Source of the DNA: Thiomargarita sp.
Lineage (GTDB): Bacteria > Pseudomonadota > Gammaproteobacteria > Beggiatoales > Beggiatoaceae
Reading direction: 5' to 3'
NCBI GenBank assembly: GCA_020726335.1
Contig: DYSU01000002.1
Location: forward strand, 1 to 64,000
DNA length: 64,000 nt
In this document: piece after piece, positions 343 to 7,995 of the stretch
Position numbering within the stretch: the first letter of the stretch is position 1
Layout: the number at the start of each line of letters is the position of its first letter
Translations under genes and position numbers: made by a program
Notes under the pieces: model-generated
The model's input: only the letters and a program-made list of their open reading frames with translations
Databases searched by the model: none
What the model was told of the DNA's origin: nothing

Positions 343-1269
343 CTATTTGACGGATACCATGTGAATGGATTGGTCTTTGGCTTTGCAACGTTCAGGTTGC
401 GAACTTTTTTTGCGTTGGTCACTGACCGCCACCAACCTGTGTTCATCCAACCACGCGATGCCTTCGACATTGCAATAAATCACTTCATTGGCCGCATCAC
501 GCGGAAATGAATAGGTTTTGCCCTCTCCGACTTGCCATTTTTCAGTGTCAATTTTACCCAGCCACAAAGCCGAAGATTCTTGCGACACAAGGGCGATACG
601 GTTGTTATCAATGGCCAAACCTGCATAATCAATAAACTGAACAGTTTCAGGCAATTCAATGGTTTGCTGATAAACCCAAGCCCCGTTTTGGTCTTTAAAA
701 ACCACCATGCGGCCATGGCCTGCTTGTTGGCCTTCGGGGTCTTTTTCACACTGATTGCCTTCACAAACCGCCAATAAAAAATCGCCCGCTGGGCTGTTGA
801 CCACGCTGATGCCTTCAAAGCCTTTGTTTTCATCGAGCAGACGATAAGGCAACGCGCTGTATTTTTTTAGCCCGTGGCTGTCGTATTCAAACACCCCGCC
901 TTCAAACGCATCGCCTTGGGCTTGGGTTTCGTTCAACACAAACAAGTGCTGGGTTTTGGGATGAAAGCTTAAACCTTCAAAATCAGTCAATAAACCCGCT
1001 TCAATCGCCAGCTTTTGCAAATGGTTTTTGGGGTCGTTTTTGGCCATACGGGCAATCACCGCAACATCGGTCATGTTGTCAAAAATCACATAAAACCGCT
1101 GGTCTTTCACCGCCACACCGCTGGCCTCCAAGTTCGCTTTTTTATTCATATTCGGCAATAAATAATACAGTTTGGCTTCATCAACGACGGTCAAGAACGT
1201 CTCCGCCCACAGCGCGCTGGCCCAAAGGCTCGTGAATAAAAACAAAGTGATTTTCAAGAACAGGCTCAT
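343..1269 (-). CDS. Secreted repeat protein, probable beta-propeller (SdiA-regulated / phytase-esterase-like type)
   Basis: The 308-residue product begins with a clear signal peptide (hydrophobic FLKITLFLFTSLWASALWA), so it should be exported to the periplasm or beyond. Four internal copies of one pattern are visible: an acidic residue, then EGLS, EGIS, AGLA or EGIA, followed 10-15 residues later by a strand such as LFVLNE, LLAVCEG, IALVSQE or LVAVSDQ. This spacing resembles blades of a beta-propeller, as in SdiA-regulated or DUF3616-like proteins; that family assignment is inference. A strong Shine-Dalgarno GAGGAAA precedes the ATG. It is the last gene of a three-gene operon, 14 bases after the fused metallopeptidase gene, which suggests a shared process. 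No catalytic residues can be named. Confidence 0.6.
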   Translation of the reverse strand: MSLFLKITLFLFTSLWASALWAETFLTVVDEAKLYYLLPNMNKKANLEASGVAVKDQRFYVIFDNMTDVAVIARMAKNDPKNHLQKLAIEAGLLTDFEGLSFHPKTQHLFVLNETQAQGDAFEGGVFEYDSHGLKKYSALPYRLLDENKGFEGISVVNSPAGDFLLAVCEGNQCEKDPEGQQAGHGRMVVFKDQNGAWVYQQTIELPETVQFIDYAGLAIDNNRIALVSQESSALWLGKIDTEKWQVGEGKTYSFPRDAANEVIYCNVEGIAWLDEHRLVAVSDQRKKSSQPERCKAKDQSIHMVSVK

Positions 1270-1283
1270 CGGTTTCCTCTTGC

Positions 1284-3272
1284 TTAATAAGCTGATTTAA
1301 TTAAATATTCAATGATTGGGTTGATGTGAATATTCAAGTTTTGTTGCAAATAAACAGGCAAATGCACCGGTTTGCTCACCATCTTGCGTTCCACCATTTC
1401 ATTGATGGTTTTTAAATGGCTAAACCCTGTTTTGCCGACATATAAATTATTCAATGATTCGCGTTGATAAAAGAGAAGCGCGTCTTTAACCCCGCGTAAA
1501 TACAGAAAATCTTTGGTAAAACCCCCGCCGCGATACACCCGCACCGTCAAACGAAACGCTTCTTCTTTGTCCATATCATAATCGTTGATCAAACTGCGAA
1601 ACGTATGGCTAAAATCATGGCGATTAATCATCATTTGTACGGCAATCACCCGCAACGCCAGCGTTTTCAACCGTGGCAAACTGATGTTGCCTGTCATGTA
1701 TTCGGCCAAAATGGCCAAACCTTCTTGGGTGTAGGTGTTGCCCGGCAAGCCCAATTTAAACACGTTAAGCTGTTGTAAATCGGCATTGGAAGAAGTCACC
1801 ATATGCACCCCCAATTCATGATGAATCAGCGCATTCATTTCGGTTTGGTTGACTTTGATGTTTTTATTGATCATCATGGTCTTGCCCACCACCATCGCCA
1901 ACGCCACAATTTTATGGGTAATTTGTACTTTGCATTGAATTTTATACATTTTTAAGGCTTGCAGACATTGGGCTTTGGCTTGTTCGGCATTGAGGTTGCG
2001 CGGCGGCATCGGTTCAAACGGTTTGGCAAACAATAAAAATTTGGCAATGCGGATGTCATCATCGCTGGGTTCACCGTAATAACGCAATGAATTGTATAAA
2101 AATTTTTCGCTGTTGATGGTGGACAATAAATCAATCTTGGTGGCAAATGTATCAATCACATCCCTATATAATTGCTGAATAGATGCATCTTTAATCGCAT
2201 CGACGGGCAAACGATAGAGTTTTTCCCGAAATTCAAACGGATTGATTCTCACTTGGCGATAATCAAACTGCGGTTGATAATTATAATGCTTGGCAAAAAA
2301 CCGTTTTTTTTCGCCCACAATGTTTTTAGGGTTAATATAAGTTAATGTACTGATTCCTTTGGCTAATTTATAAAGCTCTTCATCAACATGCGCCACCGCA
2401 GGTTCAATATACAAGGACAATAATTTGGTTTTAATTGAGGGCGTTTTGGGTTTGCATTGTTTGCTAAAATACATCGCATTGGCCAAAATCACTTCTTTTA
2501 AGCCGACTTTCAGCGCGTTCAACACCAAAGGAAAAACTTCCCCCGTGCTTTCATCCATGTAGATTTTTTTGACTTCGGTGGGCAAGACCAAGGTTTTGAA
2601 AAAATGTTGTTGCACAAAAGCGGTCAAATAACCACGGCCATAAAACACTTCATCCACAGCGGCACGGGTGGTGATGTTGGGCAAACTGATTTTGGCCAAA
2701 CTTTTTGACCAATGGCGAATCACTTTGTTCCACAATTGGGTGTTGAGCTGTTCGGTGCCAACGTTAAATGTGGGGGTGTCATCGCTGTCACGGCGCAAAT
2801 AGTTATATGAATGAATATCATAAATTAAACAATTGCCGTGGATTTTTTCCAAGGTTTTGACCAATTCCAATAAAATGGCATAAAATTGAGCGTGTTTTTC
2901 AAGGCTGTGTTTTTTTTGCGCCCGAGACAATGCAGGTTGCCACACGGTTTTGCCCCACGCTTCTTGATAAACACAGCGGTCAGCCCAGCGATTTAAATCA
3001 TATTCATAACGCGAATCCAAAGCCACCAACGTGATGGGCATTGAAGCAATCATTTCGGCGGTGAAAGGGTCTTCTTCATAGCGTCTTTCAGCCGAGGATA
3101 ACACGCATTTTTCCGCCAAATCTGCCCGCAAGTGATGACCGTCATGAATCGCCGTGCAAATAAAAAAACCATACGCTTCAATTTTGATTTCCAGCAAATC
3201 ATCCACCACCGCGTGTAATGGCTGGCGTTGTTGAATGGTTTGCAAACAGGCTTCGATGCTGAGTCTATTCAT
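1284..3272 (-). CDS. Fusion of N-formylglutamate amidohydrolase-like domain with QEGLA (DUF1704) metallopeptidase domain
   Basis: The 662-residue protein has two parts. Residues about 20-275 resemble the N-formylglutamate amidohydrolase family: DSRYEYDLNR near 86-95, DIHSYN at 152-157 and YGRGYLTAF near 211-219. Residues about 285-660 are a DUF1704 domain, annotated elsewhere as flavohemoglobin expression-modulating QEGLA motif protein: HHELGVH at 484-490 gives an HExxxH zinc motif and TQEGLA lies at 515-520. DUF1704 is related to the eukaryotic MATCAP tyrosine carboxypeptidases, so peptidase activity at a C-terminus is a reasonable guess. The start was placed at the ATG inside the last codons of the upstream ligase gene (8-base overlap), implying translational coupling; an in-frame ATG at 3332 lies deep inside that gene. 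In many bacteria the two domains are separate neighbouring genes. The true substrate is unknown. Confidence 0.85.
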   Translation of the reverse strand: MNRLSIEACLQTIQQRQPLHAVVDDLLEIKIEAYGFFICTAIHDGHHLRADLAEKCVLSSAERRYEEDPFTAEMIASMPITLVALDSRYEYDLNRWADRCVYQEAWGKTVWQPALSRAQKKHSLEKHAQFYAILLELVKTLEKIHGNCLIYDIHSYNYLRRDSDDTPTFNVGTEQLNTQLWNKVIRHWSKSLAKISLPNITTRAAVDEVFYGRGYLTAFVQQHFFKTLVLPTEVKKIYMDESTGEVFPLVLNALKVGLKEVILANAMYFSKQCKPKTPSIKTKLLSLYIEPAVAHVDEELYKLAKGISTLTYINPKNIVGEKKRFFAKHYNYQPQFDYRQVRINPFEFREKLYRLPVDAIKDASIQQLYRDVIDTFATKIDLLSTINSEKFLYNSLRYYGEPSDDDIRIAKFLLFAKPFEPMPPRNLNAEQAKAQCLQALKMYKIQCKVQITHKIVALAMVVGKTMMINKNIKVNQTEMNALIHHELGVHMVTSSNADLQQLNVFKLGLPGNTYTQEGLAILAEYMTGNISLPRLKTLALRVIAVQMMINRHDFSHTFRSLINDYDMDKEEAFRLTVRVYRGGGFTKDFLYLRGVKDALLFYQRESLNNLYVGKTGFSHLKTINEMVERKMVSKPVHLPVYLQQNLNIHINPIIEYLIKSAY

Positions 3273-4296
3273 CACCCATGGCCTGCGTGAATTCATCTTT
3301 ACGCAAATGCAATGCCCGTTTTTTATTGGCATTTTCTTCTACAAAATCAATAATTTGCTTTTGTAGTTTGGTGCGATTCAGTTTATTGATCCGCATGATA
3401 CCGCCGGGGCTTAACACATTGACTTCAATCAATTTTCCGTTAATCACATCAATGCCGACAAAATACAGCCCGTCACGCACCAATTTAGAGCCGATTAATT
3501 TGCACAAATCACGTTCCGTTTTATTTAAATTATATTTGACCACACTGCCGCCCGCATGAACATTGGCACGCACTTCTTCAGGGGCAGGCACCCGTTTCAT
3601 CGCACCAATCGGCTCACCGTTGAGCATTAAAATGCGGACATCGCCTTGGTCTGCGCCTTCCACATATTCTTGTAAAATCACATAGTTGCCATTGGGGTTG
3701 CCGCTGTAAATGTAAAAATCCAACAGCGAACGGAAACTGGCCAAAGCTTGTTTTTCAACCATGATCACGCCTTTGCCTGCATGACCGTCCAATGGTTTCA
3801 TGATCATTTTATCAGTGGCCGAATTTTTTAACACCGTGGTTAAATAATCAGGCATTTTCGACACATACGTTTTGGGAATGAAGCGGTTTTCAGGGTCATT
3901 AAAAGAAGAGGTGTATAATTTATTGTTGGCGATGCGTAACCCGTTGATGTCATTCATAATAAACACATCATCACGCACCGAATCCAGAAAATTCAAGGCA
4001 GCGGCATTCAGCGGCGGATTGGATCGCATGAAGATGGCATCAAACCCCGCCAACGGCAATTTGACTTTGCGAAACGTCGCTTTTTTATAAAACAAAGAAA
4101 CCGTGCTTGGCACGCTTTCGCCCTTAACAAACACACTGCAAAACGCCATCGCGGTCGATTCGCGCATGGTTAAATTATGGATGGTGGCCAAAGCCACCGT
4201 GTGGCCGCGCACAACGGTTTCATGAATCAATCGAATGCTGGAATCGTTATCAGGGTCGATTCTTTCCCATGCGTACATCAAAAATAAAATATTCAT
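3265..4296 (-). CDS. Glutathione synthetase-like ATP-grasp ligase
   Basis: The 343-residue protein resembles GshB: an N-terminal nucleotide-fold domain starting MNILFLMYAWERIDP, then an ATP-grasp domain with the ATP-binding lysine and glycine loop KPLDGHAGKG, the strand VILQEYVEG, and the metal-binding segment IEVNVLSPGG near the end. ATP-grasp enzymes activate a carboxylate as an acyl-phosphate and join it to an amine. No gshA is near, and the gene is coupled to the amidohydrolase/QEGLA fusion and a secreted protein, so it more likely makes a different peptide or modifies a protein terminus than makes bulk glutathione. The start at 4296 was chosen because AAAGGAG lies about nine bases before it; an ATG at 4335 lacks this. 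First gene of a three-gene minus-strand operon. Confidence 0.85.
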   Translation of the reverse strand: MNILFLMYAWERIDPDNDSSIRLIHETVVRGHTVALATIHNLTMRESTAMAFCSVFVKGESVPSTVSLFYKKATFRKVKLPLAGFDAIFMRSNPPLNAAALNFLDSVRDDVFIMNDINGLRIANNKLYTSSFNDPENRFIPKTYVSKMPDYLTTVLKNSATDKMIMKPLDGHAGKGVIMVEKQALASFRSLLDFYIYSGNPNGNYVILQEYVEGADQGDVRILMLNGEPIGAMKRVPAPEEVRANVHAGGSVVKYNLNKTERDLCKLIGSKLVRDGLYFVGIDVINGKLIEVNVLSPGGIMRINKLNRTKLQKQIIDFVEENANKKRALHLRKDEFTQAMGDE

Positions 4297-4446: not shown

Positions 4447-5754
4447 ATGCTCAACATTCGGCGATTCAACAGCCAAGACAACGGTTTTAATAAACAACTC
4501 AATGAGTTATTGGCTTGGGACAGCGTGGCCGATGGCCAAGTTATCCATACCGTGGCCAACATTTTGGCCGATGTCAAACAAAACGGTGATGCCGCTGTTT
4601 TGGCCTACACCCAAAAATGGGATGCCAGCACTGCCGATTCTATGGCCGCTTTGACAGTTTCAGCCGCACGCCTGCAACAAGCGTTGACCCGTGTTTCTCA
4701 TGAACAACGCCAAGCGTTGCAATACGCCAGTGAGCGCATCACCGCGTATCATCAACGCCAAGTGCAAGCATCGTGGTCTTATACCGAGGCCAATGGTACG
4801 CTGTTGGGGCAAAAAATCACCCCGCTGGACAAAGTGGGGTTGTATGTGCCGGGCGGTAAAGCGGCTTATCCTTCGTCGGTGTTGATGAATGCGATTCCTG
4901 CCAAAGTGGCGGGCGTGGCGGAAATCATCATGGTCGTGCCTGCGCCCAAAGGCGAATTGAATGAACTGGTTTTGGCGGCGGCGGCGATTGCAGGCGTGAA
5001 CCAAGTGTTCACCATCGGCGGCGCGCAAGCGGTGGCGGCGTTGGCTTATGGCACGCAAACGGTGCCAAAAGTCGATAAAATTGTCGGTCCGGGCAATATT
5101 TATGTCGCAGTGGCCAAAAGCCAAGTGTTTGGCACGGTGGGCATTGACATGATCGCAGGGCCTTCGGAAATTTTAATCATCTGCGATGGCCAAACCAACC
5201 CTGATTGGATGGCGATGGATTTATTTTCCCAAGCGGAACACGATGAACAAGCGCAATCCATTTTGCTCTGTCCCGACGGCGATTATTTATCGCAAGTGGC
5301 GGTTTCGATTGAAAAATTGTTGCCCACCATGCCACGCGCCGCCATCATTGGAAAAGCCTTGAATGACCGCGCTGCGTTGATTCAAGTCAAAAATTTATTG
5401 GAAGCCACGCGCATCAGCAACACCATTGCGCCCGAGCATTTGGAATTGTCGGTGGCCGAGCCACAAGCGTTGTTGAGCCACATCAAGCACGCAGGTGCGA
5501 TTTTTATGGGACGTTATACCGCCGAAGCCTTGGGCGATTATTGCGCCGGCCCCAACCATGTGTTGCCCACCTCGCAAAGTGCGCGGTTTTCTTCGCCGCT
5601 GGGGGTGTATGATTTTCAAAAACGTTCGTCTTTGATCCAATGTTCTGCGCAAGGCGCACGGGAATTGGGGCAAACTGCTTCGATTTTGGCGCGTGGCGAA
5701 GGTTTGATTGCCCATGCCTGTTCGGCTGAATACCGCCTTCATGCGCGTGAATAA
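4447..5754 (+). CDS. hisD: Histidinol dehydrogenase
   Basis: HisD carries out the last two steps of histidine synthesis, oxidising L-histidinol to L-histidinal and then histidine with two NAD+. The 435-residue length matches the E. coli enzyme. Family blocks are easy to see: [53 protein letters not shown] (zinc-binding Gln and His), the catalytic Glu-His pair in APEHLEL, and [12 protein letters not shown]. The ATG is preceded by AAAGGAAA. The gene stands apart from any other his gene in the window, whereas hisG-hisD-hisC is the usual order. Its 3' end overlaps the start of gspK by 14 bases, so an unrelated secretion gene has been placed under its promoter. Confidence 0.97.
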
Positions 5755-6939: not shown

Positions 6940-7995
6940 ATGCAAATACCCCTGTTTTCTCGCTTGATTTATGGCCCTTTATTAGGGCTGTTATTGCTCA
7001 ATGTGCCATCGGTTTATGGCCAAGAAGAAGCCGAAGTGGCCATTGATAAACCTGTCAGCCAAGTTGACCCTTGTTTGTTTCCAAAACAACCGCGTTTGGA
7101 TTGGCTGGATCGCACCCAATACAAAGTGTCGTCTAAAATTTGCGGTGCAGCTTTGTGGTTTGACCACTTTTTTGGTGATGCACGCTATGAAGAAGAAGAC
7201 CTGAAAAGCCGCTTAACCGTCAAAACTGCATTGCGCGTGGCCCAAGGCAATGACAGCAATTTCCGCGCGATTTTACGCGCCAAAGTGCGTTTGCCCCAAT
7301 TAAAAAACCGCCTGCAATTGATGATTTCCAGTGAAGAAGATGACAAAAATGTGGAACCCAGCAATGCCCGCGATGGCAACATCCGTGAAGCCGTTGGTTT
7401 ACCTTCGGCGCGCTTTCGCGCAGGTGGCGGCTTTATCGGGTTGCGCTGGACTCCTCTCACGGGTTTAGAAGACACGTTGCAATTTAGTGCAGGCATTCGC
7501 GCCAAACTGCCTGTGCGTTCGTTTGTCAGTGCGCGTTATCGCTACAGCTATGCCTACAGCCCACGGGCGTTGATTCGCGCCACCCAAAGCGTGTTTTGGG
7601 AAGATGACAACGGTGGTTTTGGTGAAAGTAGCCGTTTAGATTGGGAATATTTGTTCAATCAACGCACCGTTTTGCGCCTTAACGGCATGGGTACATTCTC
7701 GCAAGAAAGCGAAGGCATGGATTGGGAAACAGGGGCTTCGTTGCTTCATGGTTTGAGTGCAAAAAAAGCGATTTCGCTGAATTTATCCACCAAAGGCGTT
7801 ACGCGCCCCAGCACATGGCTGAAAGAAAAACGCATCAGCATTTTGTATAGGCAAAATATTTACAAACCTTGGCTGTTTGTCGAAGTTGAGCCTGAAGTCA
7901 GTTGGATTCAAGAATTTGAAGACTCCCCCACTGAACGGGTCGGTGCGATTATTTTGCGCCTAGAAGCCCAGTTTGGCCACGATTTGGGATTATAA
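6940..7995 (+). CDS. Putative outer-membrane beta-barrel protein, unknown function
   Basis: The 351-residue protein starts with a signal peptide (LIYGPLLGLLLLNVPSVYG followed by QEEAE). The mature chain is rich in alternating polar and hydrophobic residues with many aromatic strand ends, for example SFVSARYRYSYAYSPRALI, and ends in strands such as RVGAIILRLEAQFG. This is typical of an outer-membrane barrel, though it lacks a C-terminal Phe. A pair of Cys near the mature N-terminus (DPCLFPK and KICGAAL) could form a disulfide. I do not recognise a named family. The start is supported by CAAGGAG eleven bases upstream. The gene follows gspK after about 100 bases and ends before a bidirectional terminator. 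Confidence 0.55.
   Translation: MQIPLFSRLIYGPLLGLLLLNVPSVYGQEEAEVAIDKPVSQVDPCLFPKQPRLDWLDRTQYKVSSKICGAALWFDHFFGDARYEEEDLKSRLTVKTALRVAQGNDSNFRAILRAKVRLPQLKNRLQLMISSEEDDKNVEPSNARDGNIREAVGLPSARFRAGGGFIGLRWTPLTGLEDTLQFSAGIRAKLPVRSFVSARYRYSYAYSPRALIRATQSVFWEDDNGGFGESSRLDWEYLFNQRTVLRLNGMGTFSQESEGMDWETGASLLHGLSAKKAISLNLSTKGVTRPSTWLKEKRISILYRQNIYKPWLFVEVEPEVSWIQEFEDSPTERVGAIILRLEAQFGHDLGL

Follow-up and report, generated by a model that had tools for sequence, protein, structure and literature searches.

The systems closest to the locus described here are canonical glutathione synthetase, GshB (TIGR01380/NF003573; E. coli structure 1gsa); the human MATCAP/TMCP enzymes, tail carboxypeptidases that trim tubulin tails (PMC10499314; structures 7z5g and 7z6s); and the S6 glutamate ligase RimK with RimB, together with RloABC, in which an ATP-grasp ligase likewise stands with a peptidase (PMC12239564). 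The individual families at our locus are already named, and NCBI annotates the trio in S. meliloti, where NF009110 ('glutathione synthetase'), TIGR02421 ('flavohemoglobin expression-modulating QEGLA') and an N-formylglutamate amidohydrolase-like protein (FGase) are the same genes, side by side; in kind, the set is an ATP-grasp amidoligase with peptidases. These names give unrelated functions and the genes are annotated singly, whereas we read them as one cassette. A literature search, outside which lay the possibly relevant amidoligase comparative genomics of Iyer and colleagues (2009), found no paper treating the trio as one system, and a search by presumed locus tags found none on the S. meliloti cassette genes.

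We analysed a stretch of 64,000 nucleotides from Thiomargarita sp. (contig DYSU01000002.1), hereafter the window. Its open reading frames place three co-directional genes head to tail on the minus strand at 343-4296, in agreement with a first-pass annotation that had proposed a three-gene operon there. The features are as follows.

3265..4296, minus strand: GshB-like ATP-grasp ligase of the cassette subfamily NF009110/PRK12458, type A, 343 aa (from Pfam, NCBIfam and the tree)
1284..3272, minus strand: FGase-MATCAP fusion protein, 662 aa (start from homologues and the overlap with the ligase gene)
2703..3161, minus strand: FGase (N-formylglutamate amidohydrolase-like) domain, given as the extent of the Pfam match
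1335..2306, minus strand: predicted MATCAP/DUF1704 zinc-peptidase domain, with HELGVH (H485-H490) and QEGLA (E517)
343..1269, minus strand: predicted secreted, four-repeat, propeller-like protein (Phytase-like/SdiA-regulated; weak Pfam matches), in the operon after a 14-nt gap
4447..5754, plus strand: hisD, a divergent neighbour outside the cassette (Pfam/NCBIfam)

The reading frame of the fusion opens at 3332, and its start was corrected to 3272 by alignment with homologues and by the overlap with the ligase stop, which amounts to 8 nt (ATGAATAG); the ligase start was set at 4296 from homologues. The G+C content of the operon (43.6%) compares with 47.8% for the window and 52.9% for the adjoining hisD, and falls inside the spread of other stretches. 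At its N-terminus the third protein resembles a signal peptide; its four repeats (FEGL, FEGI, YAGLA and VEGIA) are at aa 97, 151, 215 and 268, and its Pfam matches, to Phytase-like and SdiA-regulated families, are weak and propeller-like. The secreted partner with four repeats that had been described from the sequence is thus present, but the suggestion that it would help reveal the substrate did not hold up, since no other cassette locus that we examined has the gene; we rejected it as a conserved partner. Elsewhere in the window, positions 6940-7995 encode a predicted secreted protein of 351 aa with no Pfam or NCBIfam match.

The second protein joins an amidohydrolase-like domain to a DUF1704 domain, as had been proposed. 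Its FGase part scores 55.8 bits against PF05013 (cut-off 28.9) over aa 58-210 of the long reading frame, and the domain probably extends to about aa 265 of the fusion protein. The window protein has H43, E67, R88, D92, N94, D152, H154, E233 and E241 in common with three stand-alone FGases, so that the conserved pattern H/E/R/DxN/DxHS/E is present; the exception is a relative (locus L046) in which H154 is lost. The MATCAP/DUF1704 part scores 331.7 bits against PF08014 (cut-off 27; aa 343-666) and 376 bits against TIGR02421 (cut-off 338.65), and contains HHELGVH and QEGLA. The HExxxH motif and the downstream glutamate (QEGLA/EEG) are invariant in seven type A proteins and align with 7z5g. Chains of human MATCAP/KIAA0895L are the only PDB matches of the type A profile (E 5.6e-11 and 7.7e-10, HExxxH aligned), and the kinship between DUF1704 and MATCAP that the first-pass annotation had stated is therefore upheld: judged by profile and motif, the second domain is genuinely related to MATCAP. 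An AlphaFold model of the window protein, built from two input sequences only, reached a pLDDT of 33.5. The fusion shares HExxxH plus the E-G motif with the tubulin carboxypeptidases, but it is distant from them, carries an attached FGase, has no tubulin substrate and has a ligase in its operon.

The association of ligase, FGase and MATCAP extends far beyond the window genome, with the genes fused or adjacent. Among 398 Pseudomonadota genomes sampled, 47 encode PF08014 proteins, which are either short, at about 430 aa, or long, at about 630-820 aa. Of the 398, 14 genomes have a ligase above the cut-off of subfamily NF009110 and 13 have a long MATCAP protein, all of them among the 14 (Fisher's exact p = 1.7e-23, a value that assumes independent genomes, although these are related). 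The sole ligase without a MATCAP gene begins 47 bp from a contig end, on the side where a type B MATCAP would lie. Two architectures keep the same three predicted activities. In type A, the ligase gene is followed by an FGase-MATCAP fusion (the window, L046, L049-L052, L056 and the Photobacterium locus L126); in type B, the order is FGase, a MATCAP gene with a different N-terminus, then ligase (L011, L045, L055, L057, L060 and pSymB of S. meliloti). One type B variant, L054, has its FGase about 1.4 kb upstream, and FGase was not seen at the type B loci L058 and L059. Type B MATCAP proteins themselves begin with an FGase that has diverged: compared with the FGase domain of type A, their N-terminus gives an hhalign probability of 97.8 (E 8e-13), but it has lost the H-x-G and D-x-H-S motifs. 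The fusion therefore probably characterises the long family as a whole. A working FGase is thus predicted, probably, inside the MATCAP protein in type A and beside it in type B. The first two genes of the operon, ligase and FGase-MATCAP, are a conserved cassette across many Proteobacteria. Within the family to which Thiomargarita sp. belongs, one of 24 sampled genomes has a PF08014 protein, of the short kind, which indicates that the cassette is sporadic there.

Partial arrangements were also seen. At L053 (10061-11110), a gene for an AstE/AspA-type deacylase overlaps a type B MATCAP gene that has neither ligase nor FGase as neighbours. In Vibrio sp. HDW18 (L127, 4516-7974), genes for a LysR regulator, maoP and an FGase-MATCAP protein stand in a row without a ligase gene. 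MATCAP proteins that stand alone, about 390 aa long, with a type A-like domain and neither FGase nor a nearby ligase, occur at L047, L048 and L061.

The ligase is GshB-like, as had been claimed, with Pfam matches to GSH-S_N and GSH-S_ATP and a score of 418 bits against NF009110/PRK12458 (cut-off 408). It has full-length homology to canonical GshB (E 1.3e-60), which it resembles more than it does RimK or TTL. The cassette ligases retain the ATP, Mg and phosphate residues, including K125, K160, R210, R225, D273, E281 and N283 (canonical-reference positions, following E. coli numbering), and R86 and R233 are conserved in the alignment with canonical GshB. The window ligase falls below the cut-offs of both glutathione synthetase equivalogs, TIGR01380 (220.4 of 299 bits) and NF003573 (264.3 of 272 bits), the second of which does not cleanly separate cassette ligases from GshB because two cassette relatives exceed its cut-off of 272 (L052, 276.5 bits; L126, 291.7 bits). 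A tree of 28 ligases resolves three separate groups, each with support of 100/99: type A, type B and canonical GshB. The window ligase groups with six other type A cassette ligases (100/99), apart from canonical GshB. Cassette ligases differ from canonical GshB at D9, T288 and E292; type A differs also at D88, and type B at D19. By alignment these changes appear to fall in the acceptor region. They are usually found alongside a canonical GshB: strong matches (E below 1e-70) also occur in the type A genomes other than that of the window, plus genomes G033 and G343. This clade and its linkage to FGase and MATCAP set it apart from canonical GshB, and the cassette ligase is probably something other than a dedicated glutathione synthetase.

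The fusion, the overlapping genes and the co-occurrence suggest that these enzymes act on one substrate. We infer that the cassette most likely attaches and removes an amino acid on the C-terminal acceptor of a peptide or protein tail, a reading to which we give somewhat less than an even chance. The ATP-grasp ligase would activate the carboxylate of the tail as an acyl phosphate and join an amino acid to it; the MATCAP domain, as a zinc carboxypeptidase, would strip C-terminal residues again; and the FGase domain, as a zinc amidohydrolase of the N-acyl-glutamate type, would cleave a second, glutamate-related amide. At L053 the AstE/AspA-type deacylase stands in place of FGase, in keeping with a need for an enzyme that hydrolyses N-acyl-Glu/Asp-like amides. 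This chemistry, the direction of each step and the single shared substrate are put forward conditionally, whereas gene content, linkage, motif retention and divergence from GshB are read directly from the loci. An add-and-remove pair had been put forward in the first-pass annotation, and it is a reasonable leading idea, as a prediction, given the linkage, the kinship to MATCAP and a ligase that is probably not a glutathione synthetase.

Published expression data also bear on this idea. In P. damselae, RS17020 ('GshB') and RS17025 (QEGLA) were 38.4-fold and 27.5-fold up at 1% versus 3% NaCl (PMC10308900), genes that we equate with the cassette by annotation, adjacent tags and synteny in other Photobacterium rather than by sequence. 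RimK rose 52-fold under the same comparison (PMC10308900), and this co-induction strengthens the add-and-remove idea. Glutamate-ligase genes are neighbours of some cassettes: a RimK-family ligase gene adjoins the cassette in L046, and genes for a TIGR02291 ligase, a retropepsin and a 7TM-transglutaminase adjoin it in L057, with homologous genes in L059. Genes of the RimK/RimB and RloABC kind thus adjoin some cassettes, but the cassette ligase is GshB-like, not RimK-like, and its peptidases are predicted zinc enzymes, not retropepsins. The proposed cassette resembles RimK glutamylation and the tubulin tyrosination cycle, yet with a GshB-like ligase. A narrower version, in which the GshB-derived ligase adds and MATCAP-FGase removes an amino acid on a protein C-terminal tail according to osmotic state, as a bacterial counterpart of tubulin tyrosination with its own ligase lineage, is, taken whole, rather unlikely. 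The genes that many genomes label 'glutathione synthase' and 'flavohemoglobin expression-modulating QEGLA protein', among them those on S. meliloti pSymB and probably those of Photobacterium, likely form a single enzyme system whose product is a different one. Published expression data would then be reread, since the 38-fold rise of P. damselae GshB at low salt had been read as glutathione metabolism, and MATCAP-type peptidases would gain a bacterial context with a candidate partner ligase.

A small-molecule cycle is the strongest rival. The ligase would build a gamma-glutamyl or N-acyl-glutamyl peptide, akin to glutathione but distinct from it, and MATCAP and FGase would salvage or degrade this peptide, for example upon osmotic change. 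FGase and AstE/AspA families act on N-acylated Glu/Asp. The GshB ancestry of the ligase, with R86 and R233 conserved, points the same way, and since GshB is a nearer relative of the ligase than RimK or TTL, a product of the small gamma-glutamyl peptide kind would chemically be equally natural. The strong induction at low salinity of adjacent genes with these annotations (PMC10308900) is consistent with such a cycle as well. A LysR gene that clusters with HdfR-like regulators adjoins or lies near many cassettes (against the HdfR cut-off of 240, the Photobacterium LysR passes with 253 and that of L057, at 197.6, does not), and E. coli HdfR binds the gltBD promoter (PMC2984483). Against this reading, protein tails are the substrates of the closest MATCAP relatives to have been characterised (PMC10499314), and seven cassette genomes lack a gshA of the PF04262 type (the search being by PF04262, with the GCS2-type PF04107 outside it), so that gamma-Glu-Cys may be unavailable there. 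Taken by family, MATCAP kinship and RimK co-induction would favour a protein tail, and GshB and FGase ancestry a small gamma-glutamyl-type peptide; we regard the small-molecule cycle as possible, at clearly less than an even chance.

The ligase may instead serve as the glutathione synthetase of its own genome, canonical gshB having been lost and its function taken over or shared. The first-pass annotation had noted that there is no gshA; this is incorrect, since a gene for glutamate-cysteine ligase (TIGR01434, 521.7 bits, cut-off 393) lies on contig C38 of the assembly. Canonical gshB was not found in the assembly, where the window ligase is the sole GSH-S_ATP protein; the assembly is 96.8% complete, and gshB could have been missed, which makes its absence less than certain. 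The usual neighbour of gshB in gammaproteobacteria is yqgE. In this assembly yqgE lies mid-contig with no gshB beside it, on the same contig as gshA (G000:C38; loci L013 and L103). Glutathione synthesis by the window ligase is thus possible in this species, where canonical gshB was not found. Set against a takeover are the type A state of the window ligase at all diagnostic positions, with no reversion to canonical GshB, and the separate canonical GshB that its type A relatives retain. Moreover, a gshB (SMc00419) mutant of S. meliloti 2011 was reported to be without GSH by HPLC (PMC7063052), despite the complete type B cassette that pSymB carries in strains 2011 and 1021; this argues against glutathione synthesis by the type B ligase, if the cassette was expressed, and is indirect for type A. 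We consider a takeover of glutathione synthesis improbable, and an amino acid added to and removed from a tail remains our preferred reading.

Maturation of a ribosomal peptide, in which ligase and peptidases would process a small precursor encoded nearby, is highly improbable: small proteins do lie between the HdfR-like regulator and the cassette, such as a Cys-pair protein in type B loci L045, L054, L058 and L060 and a DUF413/MaoP-type protein in type A loci L049, L052 and L126, as well as in L127, but they differ between lineages, the window locus has no such gene, and the Cys-pair family occurs in 38 of 48 genomes of the class against five with PF08014. A small peptide gene conserved near homologues, for which the first-pass annotation had proposed a search, was not found in strict form at the cassette loci examined. 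The Cys-pair proteins are small, predicted to be secreted and marked by C-x2-[YW]-x2-ED...C (L045, 9910-10269; L054, 4237-4509; L058, 10536-10838; L060, 12674-13048 and 13048-13395), and the L058 protein, the only member tested, has no Pfam or NCBIfam match. Their genes sometimes adjoin FGase or the HdfR-like regulator, and the family also accompanies HdfR-like regulators in L119 and L120, at neither of which was a cassette gene detected. As a candidate type B substrate, the Cys-pair protein is weakened by this occurrence and by its presence in most of the cassette-less genomes of the class. Small Lys-rich proteins, that of L060 having no family match, are also encoded near type B cassettes (L054, 4576-4914; L058, 10103-10258; L060, 10063-10302).
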